Source: Rathayibacter sp. Leaf185
Lineage (GTDB): Bacteria > Actinomycetota > Actinomycetes > Actinomycetales > Microbacteriaceae
Reading direction: 5' to 3'
Length of the DNA: 64,000 bases
NCBI RefSeq assembly: GCF_001423885.1
Contig: NZ_LMPP01000003.1
Location: forward strand, 186,001-250,000
Shown: positions 1,241 to 58,980 of the stretch, in pieces
Position numbering within the stretch: position 1 is the first letter of the stretch
Layout of the letters: every line of letters begins with the position of its first letter
The notes under the pieces: model-generated
The model's input: the letters and a program-made list of their open reading frames with translations, nothing else
What the model was told of the DNA's origin: nothing
Databases searched by the model: none
Program-made: the position numbers and the translations under genes

Positions 1241-2005
1241 CTACTCCTCGTCGTTCTCGAGCTCGGCACGCACCTCGGCGGTGATGTCGAGGTTCGTGTA
1301 GACGTTCTGCACGTCGTCCGAGTCCTCCAGCGCGTCGATGAGGCGGAAGACCTTGCGGGCGGTCTCGGCGTCGGCCTCGACCTGCAGCGAGGCGACGAAC
1401 TCGACGTCGGCCGCGTCGTAGTCGATACCGGCCTCCTGCAGCGCGGAGCGAGCGGGGACGAGCTCGCTCGGCTCGGTGCGGACCTCGAAGCTCTCGCCGT
1501 GGTCGATGACGTCGTCGACTCCGAAGTCGAGGACCGCGCCGAGCACGTCGTCCTCGGTGACGTCGTCGCCGTGCGGAACGGTGATGACGCCCTTCCGGGC
1601 GAAGTTGTAGGCGACGCTGCCCGGGTCGGCCATCGTGCCGCCGTTGCGGGTCATCGCCGTGCGGACGTCCGCCGCGGCGCGGTTCTTGTTGTCGGTCAGG
1701 CACTCGACGAGCAGGGCGATGCCGTTCGGGCCGTAGGCCTCGTACATGATCGTCGTGTAGTCGATGACCTCGCCGGTGAGGCCGGCTCCGCGCTTGATCG
1801 CGCGGTCGATGTTGTCGTTCGGGACCGAGGTCTTCTTGGCCTTCTGCACGGCATCGACGAGCGTCGGGTTGCCGGAGAGGTCGGCGCCGCCGATCTTGGC
1901 GGCCACCTCGATGTTCTTGATCAGCTTGGCGAACGACTTCGCGCGGCGCGAGTCCTTGATCGCCTTCTGGTGCTTGGTCGTGGCCCACTTGGAATGCCCG
2001 GACAC
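1241..2005 (-). CDS. yebC: YebC/PmpR family transcriptional or translational regulator
   Basis: The 254-residue product begins with the family signature [18 protein letters not shown] and contains the [12 protein letters not shown] segment of the middle domain. YebC-family proteins have been described as DNA-binding regulators and, more recently, as factors that help ribosomes through proline stretches; which applies here is not visible. The reading frame is open far upstream, but the GTG at 2005 is chosen because it gives the conserved N-terminus and has a GAGGGAG ribosome site just upstream. The start faces the repeat array at 2078. It is the first gene of yebC-ruvC-ruvA-ruvB, the conserved actinobacterial order. 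Confidence 0.95.
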
Positions 2006-2077
2006 GGTGCTCCCTCGGATGTTCGATTTCGTGCGACCCCCGAGGGCGCCGCTGCTTGGCCGTATCAGTGTAAACGG

Positions 2078-2784
2078 GGAGCCGGTCCCTGCCCGGCTCC
2101 TCGCTGTCGGCTCCTCGAGGTGGTTGCGCAGGTGGAGCGTCTTGCGACCGACTACGACGATTCGCTGAAACGCGAATCGCCTGTTCGCCTGCACCTTCAG
2201 CCGGGCCGGTCCTTGCCCGGCCCGGCGCGGTCGGCTCTCCGAGGTGGTTGCGCAGGTGGAGCGTCTTGCGACCGACTACGACGATTCGCTGAAACGCGAA
2301 TCGCCTGTTCGCCGACACCTTCAGCCGGGCCGGTCCGGTCGGCTCTCCGAGGTGGCTGCGCAGGTGGAGCGTCCTGCGATCGTCTACGACGATTCGCTGA
2401 AACGCGAACCGCCTGTTCGCCTGCACCTTCAGCCGGGCCGGTCCTTGCCCGGCCCGGCGCGGTCGGCTCTCCGGGGTGGTTGCGCAGGTGGAGCGTCTTG
2501 CGACCGTCTACGACGATTCGCTGAAACGCGAATCGCCTGTTCGCCGACACCTTCAGCCGGGCCGGCGCGGTCGGCTCTCCGAGGTGACTGCGCAGGTGGA
2601 GCGTCCTGTGACCGTCTACGACGATTCGCTGGGGCGCGAATCGCCGGTTCGCGGTGCCCTCGACGGAGCCGGTCCCTGCCCGGCTCCACGCAGTCAGCCC
2701 ACAGAGGTGGTCGCACAGGTGGAGCGGGTCGCGACCGTCTCAGACGATTCGCTGGCACGCGAATCGCCTGTTCGCCTCGCAGAT
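2078..2784 (+). repeat. Tandem array of six two-stem hairpin elements (R1-R6)
   Basis: Six head-to-tail copies of one element fill this gap. The 3' hairpins (CGATTCGC, 6 nt loop, GCGAATCG) start at 2158, 2282, 2390, 2514, 2622 and 2745, so the spacings are 124, 108, 124, 108 and 123. The 5' hairpins lie at 2078-2100 (GGAGCCGG/CCGGCTCC), 2201-2225 and 2433-2457 (CCGGGCCGG/CCGGCCCGG) and 2665-2687. Copies R3 and R5 have lost the distal half of that hairpin, which explains the 108 bp spacing. The 232 bp super-period shows that a dimer was duplicated. Linkers between the two hairpins are 56-57 nt. The stretch 2006-2077 next to yebC holds no gene and presumably the yebC promoter, for which I see no convincing -35/-10 pair. 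Confidence 0.95.
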
Positions 2785-2947
2785 GGTGGTCGCCGCGTCC
2801 GACGACCCGATGCTGGTTCGATCCGTCGGAGAAGCCCCATCGGAGTCACTCACACGGGCCGTCTACGGCGGGTCGGCCCCGCGAAGACGTCTCCGCAGGC
2901 ATCACGTCCCAGAAGAACAGCCTGCAGATCGGCGACCCGCTACGAGG

Positions 2948-3057
2948 CGGACAGGCGATTCGCGTGTCAGCGAATCGGCGTAGCCGTTCGCAACACGCTC
3001 CACCTGCGCGACTACCCCTGGGAGCCGACTGCGCGGCGCCGGGCAGGGACCGGCGCC
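2948..3057 (-). repeat. Inverted single copy of the hairpin element (R7)
   Basis: This copy runs opposite to R1-R6. Read on the minus strand, its 5' hairpin is GGCGCCGG, loop TCCCTGC, CCGGCGCC (3035-3057) and its 3' hairpin is CGATTCGC, loop TGACAC, with a closing arm whose last pair is intact (2956-2977). The linker is 57 nt. The 5' hairpin ends 16 bp past the fpg stop codon. With R6 it forms an inverted pair around a unique spacer (about 2785-2947) that shows no gene. The first stem differs from that of R6 (GGAGCCGG) by a paired change. Confidence 0.93.
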
Positions 3058-3060
3058 GAC

Positions 3061-3089
3061 GCGGTTGTTGCGCTCAGCGCAGCAACCGC
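3061..3089 (-). terminator. Hairpin enclosing the fpg stop codon
   Basis: An inverted repeat, GCGGTTG at 3061-3067 with CAACCGC at 3083-3089, continues inward through TGCGC/GCGCA to give a stem of about 13 bp including one G-T pair. The three-base loop (3074-3076) is the fpg stop codon itself. No T-run follows. It may act as an end-of-transcript structure together with the R7 hairpin just beyond it. Confidence 0.5.
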
Positions 3090-3934
3090 GAGAGGACACG
3101 GTCGGCGAGGGGCTTCCCGCCCGTCTGGCAGGTGGGGCAGTACTGGAGGGTGGAGTCGGCGAAGATCACCTGACGGACGGTGTCGCCGCAGACAGGGCAG
3201 GCCTCGCCGGTGCGGCCATGGACGCGCATGCCGAGCTTCTTCTCGCGCTTCAGGTCGGCGGCGTGCAGGCCCTCGGCGCGGGTCAGCGCCTCTTCGAGGG
3301 TGTAGCGGAGGGCGGTGTAGAGGCGGTCGAGCTCCTCCGGCGTCACGGAGGCGGGCTTGAACGGCGACATCCGGGCGACGTGCAGGATCTCGTCGGAGTA
3401 CGCGTTGCCGATGCCCGCGATGCGCGACTGGTCGCGGAGGACGCCCTTCAGCTGGGCGCGACCGGCCGTCGCGAGGATCGCTCCGAGGATGTCCTTCGTG
3501 AAGGCGGGGTCGAGCGGGTCGGGGCCGAGGCGGGCGACGCCGGGGACGTCACGCGGATCCGCCACGATCGACAGCGCGAGGCTCTTCTTCGTACCCGCCT
3601 CGGTGATGTCGAAGCCGGACCCGTCGTCGAGGACGAGGCGCGCCGCGAGCGGCCCGCGCCCGGGCTTCACAGGAGCAGTGGGCCGCTCGGGCCGCCAGCG
3701 CACCCAGCCGGCGCGCGCGAGGTGCAGGAGGACGTGCGCATCCCCGATCGCGAGGTCGAGGAACTTTCCGTGCCGGCTCACTCCGTGAACCGTCTGCCCC
3801 GCGAGGGACGACGGCGGGATCGCGACGGTCTTGAGTGCCGAGATCGCGTACACGCCGACGCTCTCGAGGACGCGGCCGCCGAGCCGCTCGTCGAGGTCGC
3901 GGGCGAGCGCGTGCACTTCGGGGAGTTCGGGCAT
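3074..3934 (-). CDS. Fpg/Nei family DNA glycosylase
   Basis: The 286-residue product belongs to the formamidopyrimidine-DNA glycosylase/endonuclease VIII family, which excises oxidised bases and cleaves the strand. After removal of Met the N-terminus is PELPEV, giving the catalytic Pro and Glu. SRHGKFLDL near residue 55 carries the conserved Lys. RIAGIGNAYSDEIL is the helix-two-turn-helix region, and the C-terminus has a zinc finger with CPVCG and CPTCQ. The start is the ATG at 3934, not the upstream in-frame ATG, because PELPE must follow Met directly. The PELPEVHAL variant (not PELPEVET) suggests an actinobacterial paralogue rather than canonical MutM, so substrate range is uncertain. Confidence 0.9.
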   Translation of the reverse strand: MPELPEVHALARDLDERLGGRVLESVGVYAISALKTVAIPPSSLAGQTVHGVSRHGKFLDLAIGDAHVLLHLARAGWVRWRPERPTAPVKPGRGPLAARLVLDDGSGFDITEAGTKKSLALSIVADPRDVPGVARLGPDPLDPAFTKDILGAILATAGRAQLKGVLRDQSRIAGIGNAYSDEILHVARMSPFKPASVTPEELDRLYTALRYTLEEALTRAEGLHAADLKREKKLGMRVHGRTGEACPVCGDTVRQVIFADSTLQYCPTCQTGGKPLADRVLSRLLR

Positions 3935-55379: not shown

Positions 55380-55380
55380 T

Positions 55381-55710
55381 CTGAGCCCGTCCCCGCCGGG
55401 CTCAGCGCAGTCGGCCCGTGCAGGTGGTCGCGTTTCGCAGAGCGTCCTGCGTACGCCTAAGAAGATCCGCTGAAACGCGGATCTCCTGTTCGGCTCGCGG
55501 AGCGTCGCTGACACAGACCCTCCTGACCGAGCGGTCTTCGATGTCGCGGCGTGCAGGCGAATGCTTGGCTGGCGAGCCCGTATGTCGAGAGGTGCAGCCG
55601 AACGGCGGAATCGCGTGCCAGCGATTCCGTCCAGGCGGACGCAGGACGCTCTGCGGAACGCGACCACTGATATTGGCCGACTGCGCTGAGCCCGGCGAGG
55701 ACGGGCTCAG
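55381..55710. repeat. Inverted pair of hairpin elements (R8 and R9), REPIN-like
   Basis: R8 (plus orientation) has a 5' hairpin CTGAGCCCG/CGGGCTCAG with loop TCCCCGC (55381-55405) and a 3' hairpin AGATCCGC/GCGGATCT with loop TGAAAC (55463-55484). R9 (minus) has CTGAGCCCG/CGGGCTCAG with loop TCCTCGC (55686-55710) and GGAATCGC/GCGATTCC with loop TGGCAC (55607-55628). Linkers are 57 nt in both. The stems differ from R1-R7 by paired changes. About 120 bp of unique sequence separates the copies. R8 begins 22 bp past the DUF3043 stop and R9 ends 17 bp before the pyrD stop. No gene lies in 55359-55727. Confidence 0.92.
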
Positions 55711-55727
55711 TAGACGGCTCCGGGGGC

Positions 55728-58567: not shown

Positions 58568-58642
58568 GGCGCCCCCAGTCTACCGGCCCGCCCCCACCCC
58601 CTCCGGCGACGCAGGCGTACGGGCCACCCCCCGACGACGGTC

Positions 58643-58678
58643 GGTCTCGATACGCCCCTGCGGTGCGACTCGACCACC
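58643..58678 (+). repeat. GGTCTCGATACG extragenic repeat
   Basis: GGTCTCGATACGCC and CTCGACCACC flank a short GC-rich middle, forming an imperfect palindrome 75 bp upstream of hisD. A variant is at 38149-38192. From memory such TCTCGATACG...CTCGACCA sequences are scattered through Microbacteriaceae genomes. Confidence 0.6.
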
Positions 58679-58738
58679 GGGCCGGCCTGTCTCGGCGCAG
58701 CCGGACCCCGCCGACAGCCGGCGCGACCACCTCCGAGG

Positions 58739-58972
58739 CGAACGGTCGATTCGCGTCTCAGCGAATCGATCTAGCCGTGCGCACCACGCTCCACCTGCGC
58801 AACCACCTCGGAGAGCCGACTGCGCAGAGCCCGGCAGGGACGGGCTCTGCGACGAACACAGCAAACGGTCGATTCGCGTCTCAGCGAATCGATCTAGCCG
58901 TGCGCAGGACGCTCCACCTGCGCAACCACCTCTGGAAGCCGACCGCGCGAAGCCGGGCAGGGACCGGCTTCG
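58739..58972 (-). repeat. Two direct copies of the hairpin element (R10, R11) next to dnaE
   Basis: Both copies read on the minus strand. Their 5' hairpins are GCAGAGCCCG/CGGGCTCTGC (58824-58850) and CGAAGCCGG/CCGGCTTCG (58948-58972), each with loop TCCCTGC. Their 3' hairpins (CGATTCGC, TGAGAC, GCGAATCG) are at 58747-58768 and 58870-58891, 123 bp apart. Linkers are 55 and 56 nt and contain GCGCA...TGCGC pairing. The outer 5' hairpin ends 8 bp past the dnaE stop. No gene lies in 58568-58980. Confidence 0.93.
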
Positions 58973-58980
58973 ACATCACC

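Follow-up and report, generated by a model that had tools for sequence, protein, structure and literature searches.

The hairpins repeated across a 64-kb stretch of the Rathayibacter sp. Leaf185 genome (the whole stretch of DNA analysed, hereafter the window) raise the question of what kind of element recurs there and what its positions say about it. The initial annotation had counted eleven copies built to one plan, and a covariance search (model R1, constructed from 20 aligned copies) combined with reading of the stems bore out that number: eleven copies of ~115 nt each, with six on the plus strand at 2076–2777, one on the minus strand at 2945–3059 and four more at 55–59 kb. The Rathayibacter unit consists of hairpin 1, a linker with conserved blocks and a long hairpin 3.

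The plus-strand array at 2076–2777 is formed by six tandem copies placed 124 or 108 nt apart; the shorter spacing arises because two of its copies have lost hairpin 1. Four are full copies: copy 1 (2076–2190; hairpin 1 at 2078–2100, hairpin 3 at 2158–2179; 132.2 bits in the R1 cmsearch, as for all scores below), copy 2 (2200–2314; hairpin 1 at 2200–2226, hairpin 3 at 2282–2303; 132.0 bits), copy 4 (2432–2546; hairpin 1 at 2432–2458, hairpin 3 at 2514–2535; 128.4 bits) and copy 6 (2663–2777; hairpin 1 at 2665–2687, hairpin 3 at 2745–2766; 123.3 bits). The two without hairpin 1 are copy 3 (2324–2422; 84.7 bits), which also has one broken pair in hairpin 3, and copy 5 (2556–2652; hairpin 3 at 2622–2643; 78.4 bits). 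Copy 1 is antisense to a YebC/TACO1-family gene (yebC; 1241–2005, minus strand; Pfam PF01709 and PF20772) with hairpin 1 at the end nearer the yebC start (2005). The remaining copies follow genes in the sense orientation. Copy 7 (2945–3059, minus strand; hairpin 1 at 3034–3058, hairpin 3 at 2956–2977; 131.9 bits) lies 14 nt after the stop of an Fpg/Nei-type DNA glycosylase gene (nei; 3074–3916, minus strand; PF06831 and PF01149), which faces it. Copy 8 (55380–55495, plus strand; hairpin 1 at 55381–55405, hairpin 3 at 55463–55484; 120.7 bits) follows the stop of a DUF3043 gene by 21 nt and converges with copy 9 (55596–55711, minus strand; hairpin 1 at 55686–55710, hairpin 3 at 55606–55629; 111.6 bits), which follows the stop of a dihydroorotate dehydrogenase gene by 16 nt; this plus/minus pair at 55380 and 55711 exists because the two convergent genes end there. 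Copy 11 (58859–58973, minus strand; hairpin 1 at 58948–58972, hairpin 3 at 58869–58892; 125.8 bits) begins 7 nt after the dnaE stop, and copy 10 (58736–58850, minus strand; hairpin 1 at 58823–58851, hairpin 3 at 58746–58769; 129.7 bits) is the second of the pair downstream of dnaE. The repeats were also considered as the two ends of a composite transposon enclosing cargo; this was rejected, as only ordinary genes or nothing lie between plus and minus copies.

Both hairpins had been described as present in every copy. A perfect hairpin 1 stem of 8–11 bp with the loop TCCYYGC is indeed found in nine of the eleven, the hairpin being lost from 2324–2422 and 2556–2652, and a perfect hairpin 3 of 8–9 bp with the loop TGRNRC is found in ten, the stem at 2324–2422 being the one with a broken pair. 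The linker is nearly fixed in length, as proposed, although the range of 55–57 nt widens to 53–57 nt in the nine full copies once the stems are drawn at full length. The idea of constant loops did not survive a wider sample; hairpin 1 sequence and loop often differ from TCCYYGC in other Rathayibacter copies.

That both arms of each stem change together, by contrast, is amply upheld by a structure alignment of 150 copies (the best 150 of 157 matches), in which covariation lies far above shuffles. Standard pairs occupy 96.5% of 2,735 stem cells against 71.4% when shuffled, compensated double changes occur in 603 stem cells against 177, and such changes are found in 17 of the 19 stem pairs (0 of 500 shuffles being as high); sliding the partner column by 1–3 positions drops pairing to 33–47%. 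Among 90 copies below 85% identity, the 16 highest-scoring column pairs all belong to stems. Against a shuffle null that ignores relatedness, about 31 pairs score above the maximum, 20 of them nested stem pairs and the remainder neighbours or off-by-one pairs. Beyond an internal loop, hairpin 3 is prolonged by an outer GGC/GCC stem that covaries as well. The linker hairpin GCGCAGG/CCTGCGC, put forward earlier as a further fold, has no covariation in the larger copy set and was discarded as a third stem; strong conservation instead marks the linker blocks CGCRGTCGGCT, GGTSGCG and AGAGCG..GCG, with CGCRGTCGGCT, AGAGCG and GCG 90–100% conserved in most columns and devoid of covariation. At 34 orthologous locus pairs of two close species, too, hairpin 1 has more compensated than one-sided changes (28 against 13). 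A process that keeps both arms matched, be it selection or another, is thus well supported; of the earlier argument for selection on RNA or single-stranded DNA structure, the matched arms stand and the constant loops fall away.

The initial annotation could not name a described family with this plan and had proposed a covariance model and a search of related genomes. R1, built for this purpose, matches all 15 Rathayibacter genomes, with between at least 11 and at least 74 matches per genome (at least 63 in Rathayibacter sp. Leaf185), in line with a first blastn search that placed the element in 15 of 15. An exact pattern spanning hairpin 1 and the linker start gave 37 stretches among ~85,000 species, confined to Rathayibacter, Humibacter, Agromyces sp. 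Marseille-P2726, Gryllotalpicola and one metagenome-assembled actinomycete. Humibacter, Agromyces and Gryllotalpicola carry a shorter sister form whose second hairpin differs from that of Rathayibacter: it shares hairpin 1 and the block CGCNGTCGGC, lacks hairpin 3 and has a GC-rich hairpin of ~7 bp inside the linker, ahead of the AGAGCG..GCG block. Since a model (R2) built from 17 sister-form sequences, none from Rathayibacter, nonetheless recovers copies from Rathayibacter with E values near 1e-6 (in eight of the ten Rathayibacter genomes among the matches listed), the two forms are related. Under stricter filters, by which weak matches are lost, R2 matched 17 of 398 family genomes (5 of 85 genera) and, in a sample of the phylum, one of 296 genomes, namely Rathayibacter sp. 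Leaf185. Among the loci collected, L052 sits in apparent coding sequence and was taken as a false match.

No Rfam 15 family reaches its gathering score on the element. Across the whole window only four tRNAs reach gathering score, and six matches to the region 2000–3100 at E up to 5 all fall below cut-off; a known RNA family was ruled out on that ground. The openly licensed literature yielded no description, and the family is real, widespread and apparently undescribed. MIRU and BOX, compared by description only, are likewise modular or tandem intergenic units of variable number but differ in structural plan. A REP mobilized by a RAYT protein was ruled out, as the Y1/RAYT transposase (PF01797) occurs in 0 of 15 Rathayibacter genomes, the same search finding its control in 5 of 14 named genomes. 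In the 16-nt foot of the first copy, the GTAG tag is present in 1 of 100 arrays (background 2%) and CGTC in 24 of 100 (background 11%). The element is like REP/BIME/REPIN sequences, so far as the available portions of two accounts describe them, in having many intergenic palindromic copies near stops, in co-directional or convergent gaps and often with neighbours in opposite orientation (PMC3733652, PMC12306157). It is unlike REPs, as there portrayed, in its 115-nt length, with two dissimilar hairpins around a conserved linker rather than a single 20–40 bp palindrome, in the want of a GTAG tag, a general CGTC tag or a Y1/RAYT gene, and in its strong orientation rule. With ERIC, NEMIS and RUP it shares a structured, intergenic unit of ~100–130 bp, and orientation to the gene matters for ERIC in the excerpt available (PMC2229807); unlike them as described there, it has no terminal inverted repeats or TA ends that we could see, and forms tandem arrays with a regular 108–134 nt period.

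That the copies mark gene ends is new to this analysis. Genes were predicted with a purpose-built ORF scorer (Pfam, run on eight proteins, confirmed all eight), copies were joined into arrays across gaps of up to 250 nt, and gene context was read in two of the 15 genomes, Rathayibacter sp. Leaf185 and G007. The arrays lie sense, hairpin 1 facing the stop codon, in 41 of 48 cases in Leaf185 and 46 of 52 in G007, with a median stop-to-element distance of 20 and 18 nt, respectively; 37 and 40 of these sense arrays fall within 60 nt of the stop, and the commonest distance is 7 nt (13 arrays). In G007, distances of 474 and 1811 nt probably reflect faulty gene calls. Divergent gaps hold no arrays in either genome, while 22 of 53 (Leaf185) and 28 of 57 (G007) element-free gaps of at least 100 nt at the same loci are divergent; the loci were picked for holding an element, and their convergent share is biased accordingly. 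Co-directional gaps contain sense over antisense arrays at 14 to 7 and 15 to 6 in the two genomes. Of the 17 distinct arrays in the sister genera (each place counted once, one weak match with E 0.03 omitted and three loci added), 14 are sense behind a gene, 13 of these within 28 nt. At several loci, the stop and the element have another perfect hairpin between them. We also observed the element between tRNA-Ile and tRNA-Ala, ~11 nt after tRNA-Ile (L145, 2501–2609; L176, 10311–10424).

A minority of arrays (7 of 48 in Leaf185, 6 of 52 in G007) are antisense to the gene that they face, at its start. The plus-strand array of the window is one such exception, upstream of yebC, and copies occupy the same place in six of the 15 genomes (G000, G007, G004, G001, G013 and G014), mostly with hairpin 1 adjoining a putative −10-like TTAGACT or TTTACACT. 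At two further loci upstream of yebC (L183 and L217), extra partial units consisting of hairpin 1 only are repeated beside the promoter region.

The structure, the copy number, the homology of the two forms and the gene-side position of hairpin 1 behind stops are established here. The reading that we favour, at about even confidence, is a REP-like family of 3′-UTR elements that probably act as folded RNA at mRNA 3′ends; that the ~115-nt repeats in Rathayibacter are tied to transcription-unit 3′ ends we hold with the same evenly balanced assurance. The element would form the final stretch of the mRNA. Its hairpin 1 would fold immediately beyond the region that the terminating ribosome covers and could block 3′–5′ decay or read-through, the conserved core would be bound by a putative factor, and copies would spread and vary in tandem number. 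Sense placement behind stop codons speaks for RNA as the folded strand. The presence of the element behind dnaE in most genomes with a legible flank also favours the mRNA 3′-end reading. REPs and ERIC offer a precedent by analogy for a gene-end role: in the portions of the sources at hand, REPs share the placement between co-directional or convergent genes near stops (PMC3733652) and, where they lie close to a stop codon, are reported to stall ribosomes and affect translation and stability (PMC12306157), and ERIC acts by orientation (PMC2229807). Against the mRNA 3′-end reading stand the absence of a U-tract after hairpin 1, the antisense arrays and the retention of the yebC-upstream array in several species; moreover, the extra hairpin between stop and element, taken with the missing U-tract, means that much transcription may end before the element is reached. 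High-GC actinobacteria often lack clear U-tract terminators, which raises the question of how they end their transcripts. The element gives that question a concrete object, since it marks dozens of gene ends in each genome under a strict orientation rule, with compensated stems and a cross-genus core; the differing tandem numbers found at one and the same gene in sister species supply a natural series. A more ambitious version, which we regard as doubtful, would see in the element an RNA module, restricted to this lineage, by which several Microbacteriaceae genera define their mRNA 3′ ends; a dedicated factor would read its core (CGCRGTCGGCT ... AGAGCG..GCG), its hairpins would have been exchanged between lineages, and it would have spread gene by gene, sense behind stops.

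The departures from perfect pairing bear on which nucleic acid is folded, on the premise that selection on the sense RNA should leave more G–T than A–C departures. The core stems show 23 G–T against 22 A–C departures, compared with 18 against 0 in 11 tRNAs (p = 9e-5); hairpin 1 leans to G–T (29 against 12 A–C) and hairpin 3 to A–C (31 against 7 G–T). This result weakens a plain RNA reading without being decisive, and the equality of G–T and A–C in the core stems consequently keeps a DNA-level role or self-spreading in contention. A gene-end element working in double-stranded DNA is, in our judgement, unlikely: its palindromes and core would bind a protein (a topoisomerase or nucleoid protein) at places where positive supercoiling accumulates, in a BIME-like role, with the perfect arms kept, as we think comparably unlikely, because both strands matter or through template-switching repair. 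Strand-symmetric departures fit such an element, as do the siting behind genes and in convergent gaps with none in divergent gaps, the occurrence and retention of antisense copies, and an excess of double over single changes in hairpin 1 between close species (28 compensated against 13 one-sided changes at 34 orthologous loci of a close species pair; hairpin 3 has 7 against 17 at the same loci). It fails, however, to predict either the sense bias in co-directional gaps or the common 7-nt stop distance, and the symmetry is not specific to the element, because ordinary hairpins behind element-free genes are symmetric too (4 G–T to 5 A–C in 11 hairpins, two poor ones having been dropped).

Comparison of orthologous sites informs on a further alternative, a self-spreading miniature element without cell function, tolerated only behind genes and oriented by insertion beside hairpins, which we consider rather improbable. 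The copies are dispersed and many, the family is missing from most of the Microbacteriaceae genomes searched, and sites filled in some species are empty in others: a sense copy lies behind nei in six of 15 genomes (G000, G007, G005, G004, G001 and G013), and the element follows dnaE in 10 of the 13 genomes whose flank could be read (two of the 15 are cut there by a contig end), being absent in G009, G011 and G012. Tandem number also varies at orthologous loci; the close pair G000/G007 has most loci in common and differs in copies per array, with six against one upstream of yebC. Against this alternative, no terminal inverted repeats are visible in the alignments, in which the true ends of the element are not fixed, and the Y1 transposase is absent from the genomes searched. 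Viral contigs gave 0 matches to one exact pattern, and plasmids no blastn match at E 1e-5, negatives on which a phage or plasmid element was ruled out. That elements with compensated stems have long been kept at orthologous sites likewise argues against mere self-spreading. Between orthologues, unpaired positions diverge by 18.5%, close to the 22.4% at fourfold sites of 39 neighbouring genes, hence constraint outside the core blocks is weak, a point that counts against the favoured mRNA 3′-end reading. That the copies are ordinary intrinsic terminators, alike by chance, is very unlikely: a GC-rich hairpin does follow stops closely and sits in convergent gaps, but hairpin 1 is followed by the consensus CGCRGTCGGCT rather than a U run, the conserved core and second hairpin are common to dispersed copies and across genera, and an extra terminator-like hairpin precedes several copies.

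Returning to the favoured mRNA 3′-end family, the surroundings of the copies hold further motifs. A tail motif, TCTGCARG, occurs in 16 of 101 tails, 15–18 nt past the element end (for example at ~2918–2928 of the window, minus strand), an indication that the complete unit extends beyond our model. A second repeat, CTGGTCGAGTAG...CGTATCGAGACC, lies at 58626–58680 of the window and downstream of the element at many loci; in 18 of 101 tails its core, GTCGAGTAG/ATCGAGTAG, follows the element at no more than 110 nt. Gene ends at L161 and at L241, the latter behind dnaE in G012, have a third palindromic repeat, of the form CGAGATGCCTCTTG...CAAGAGGCATCTCG or near it.
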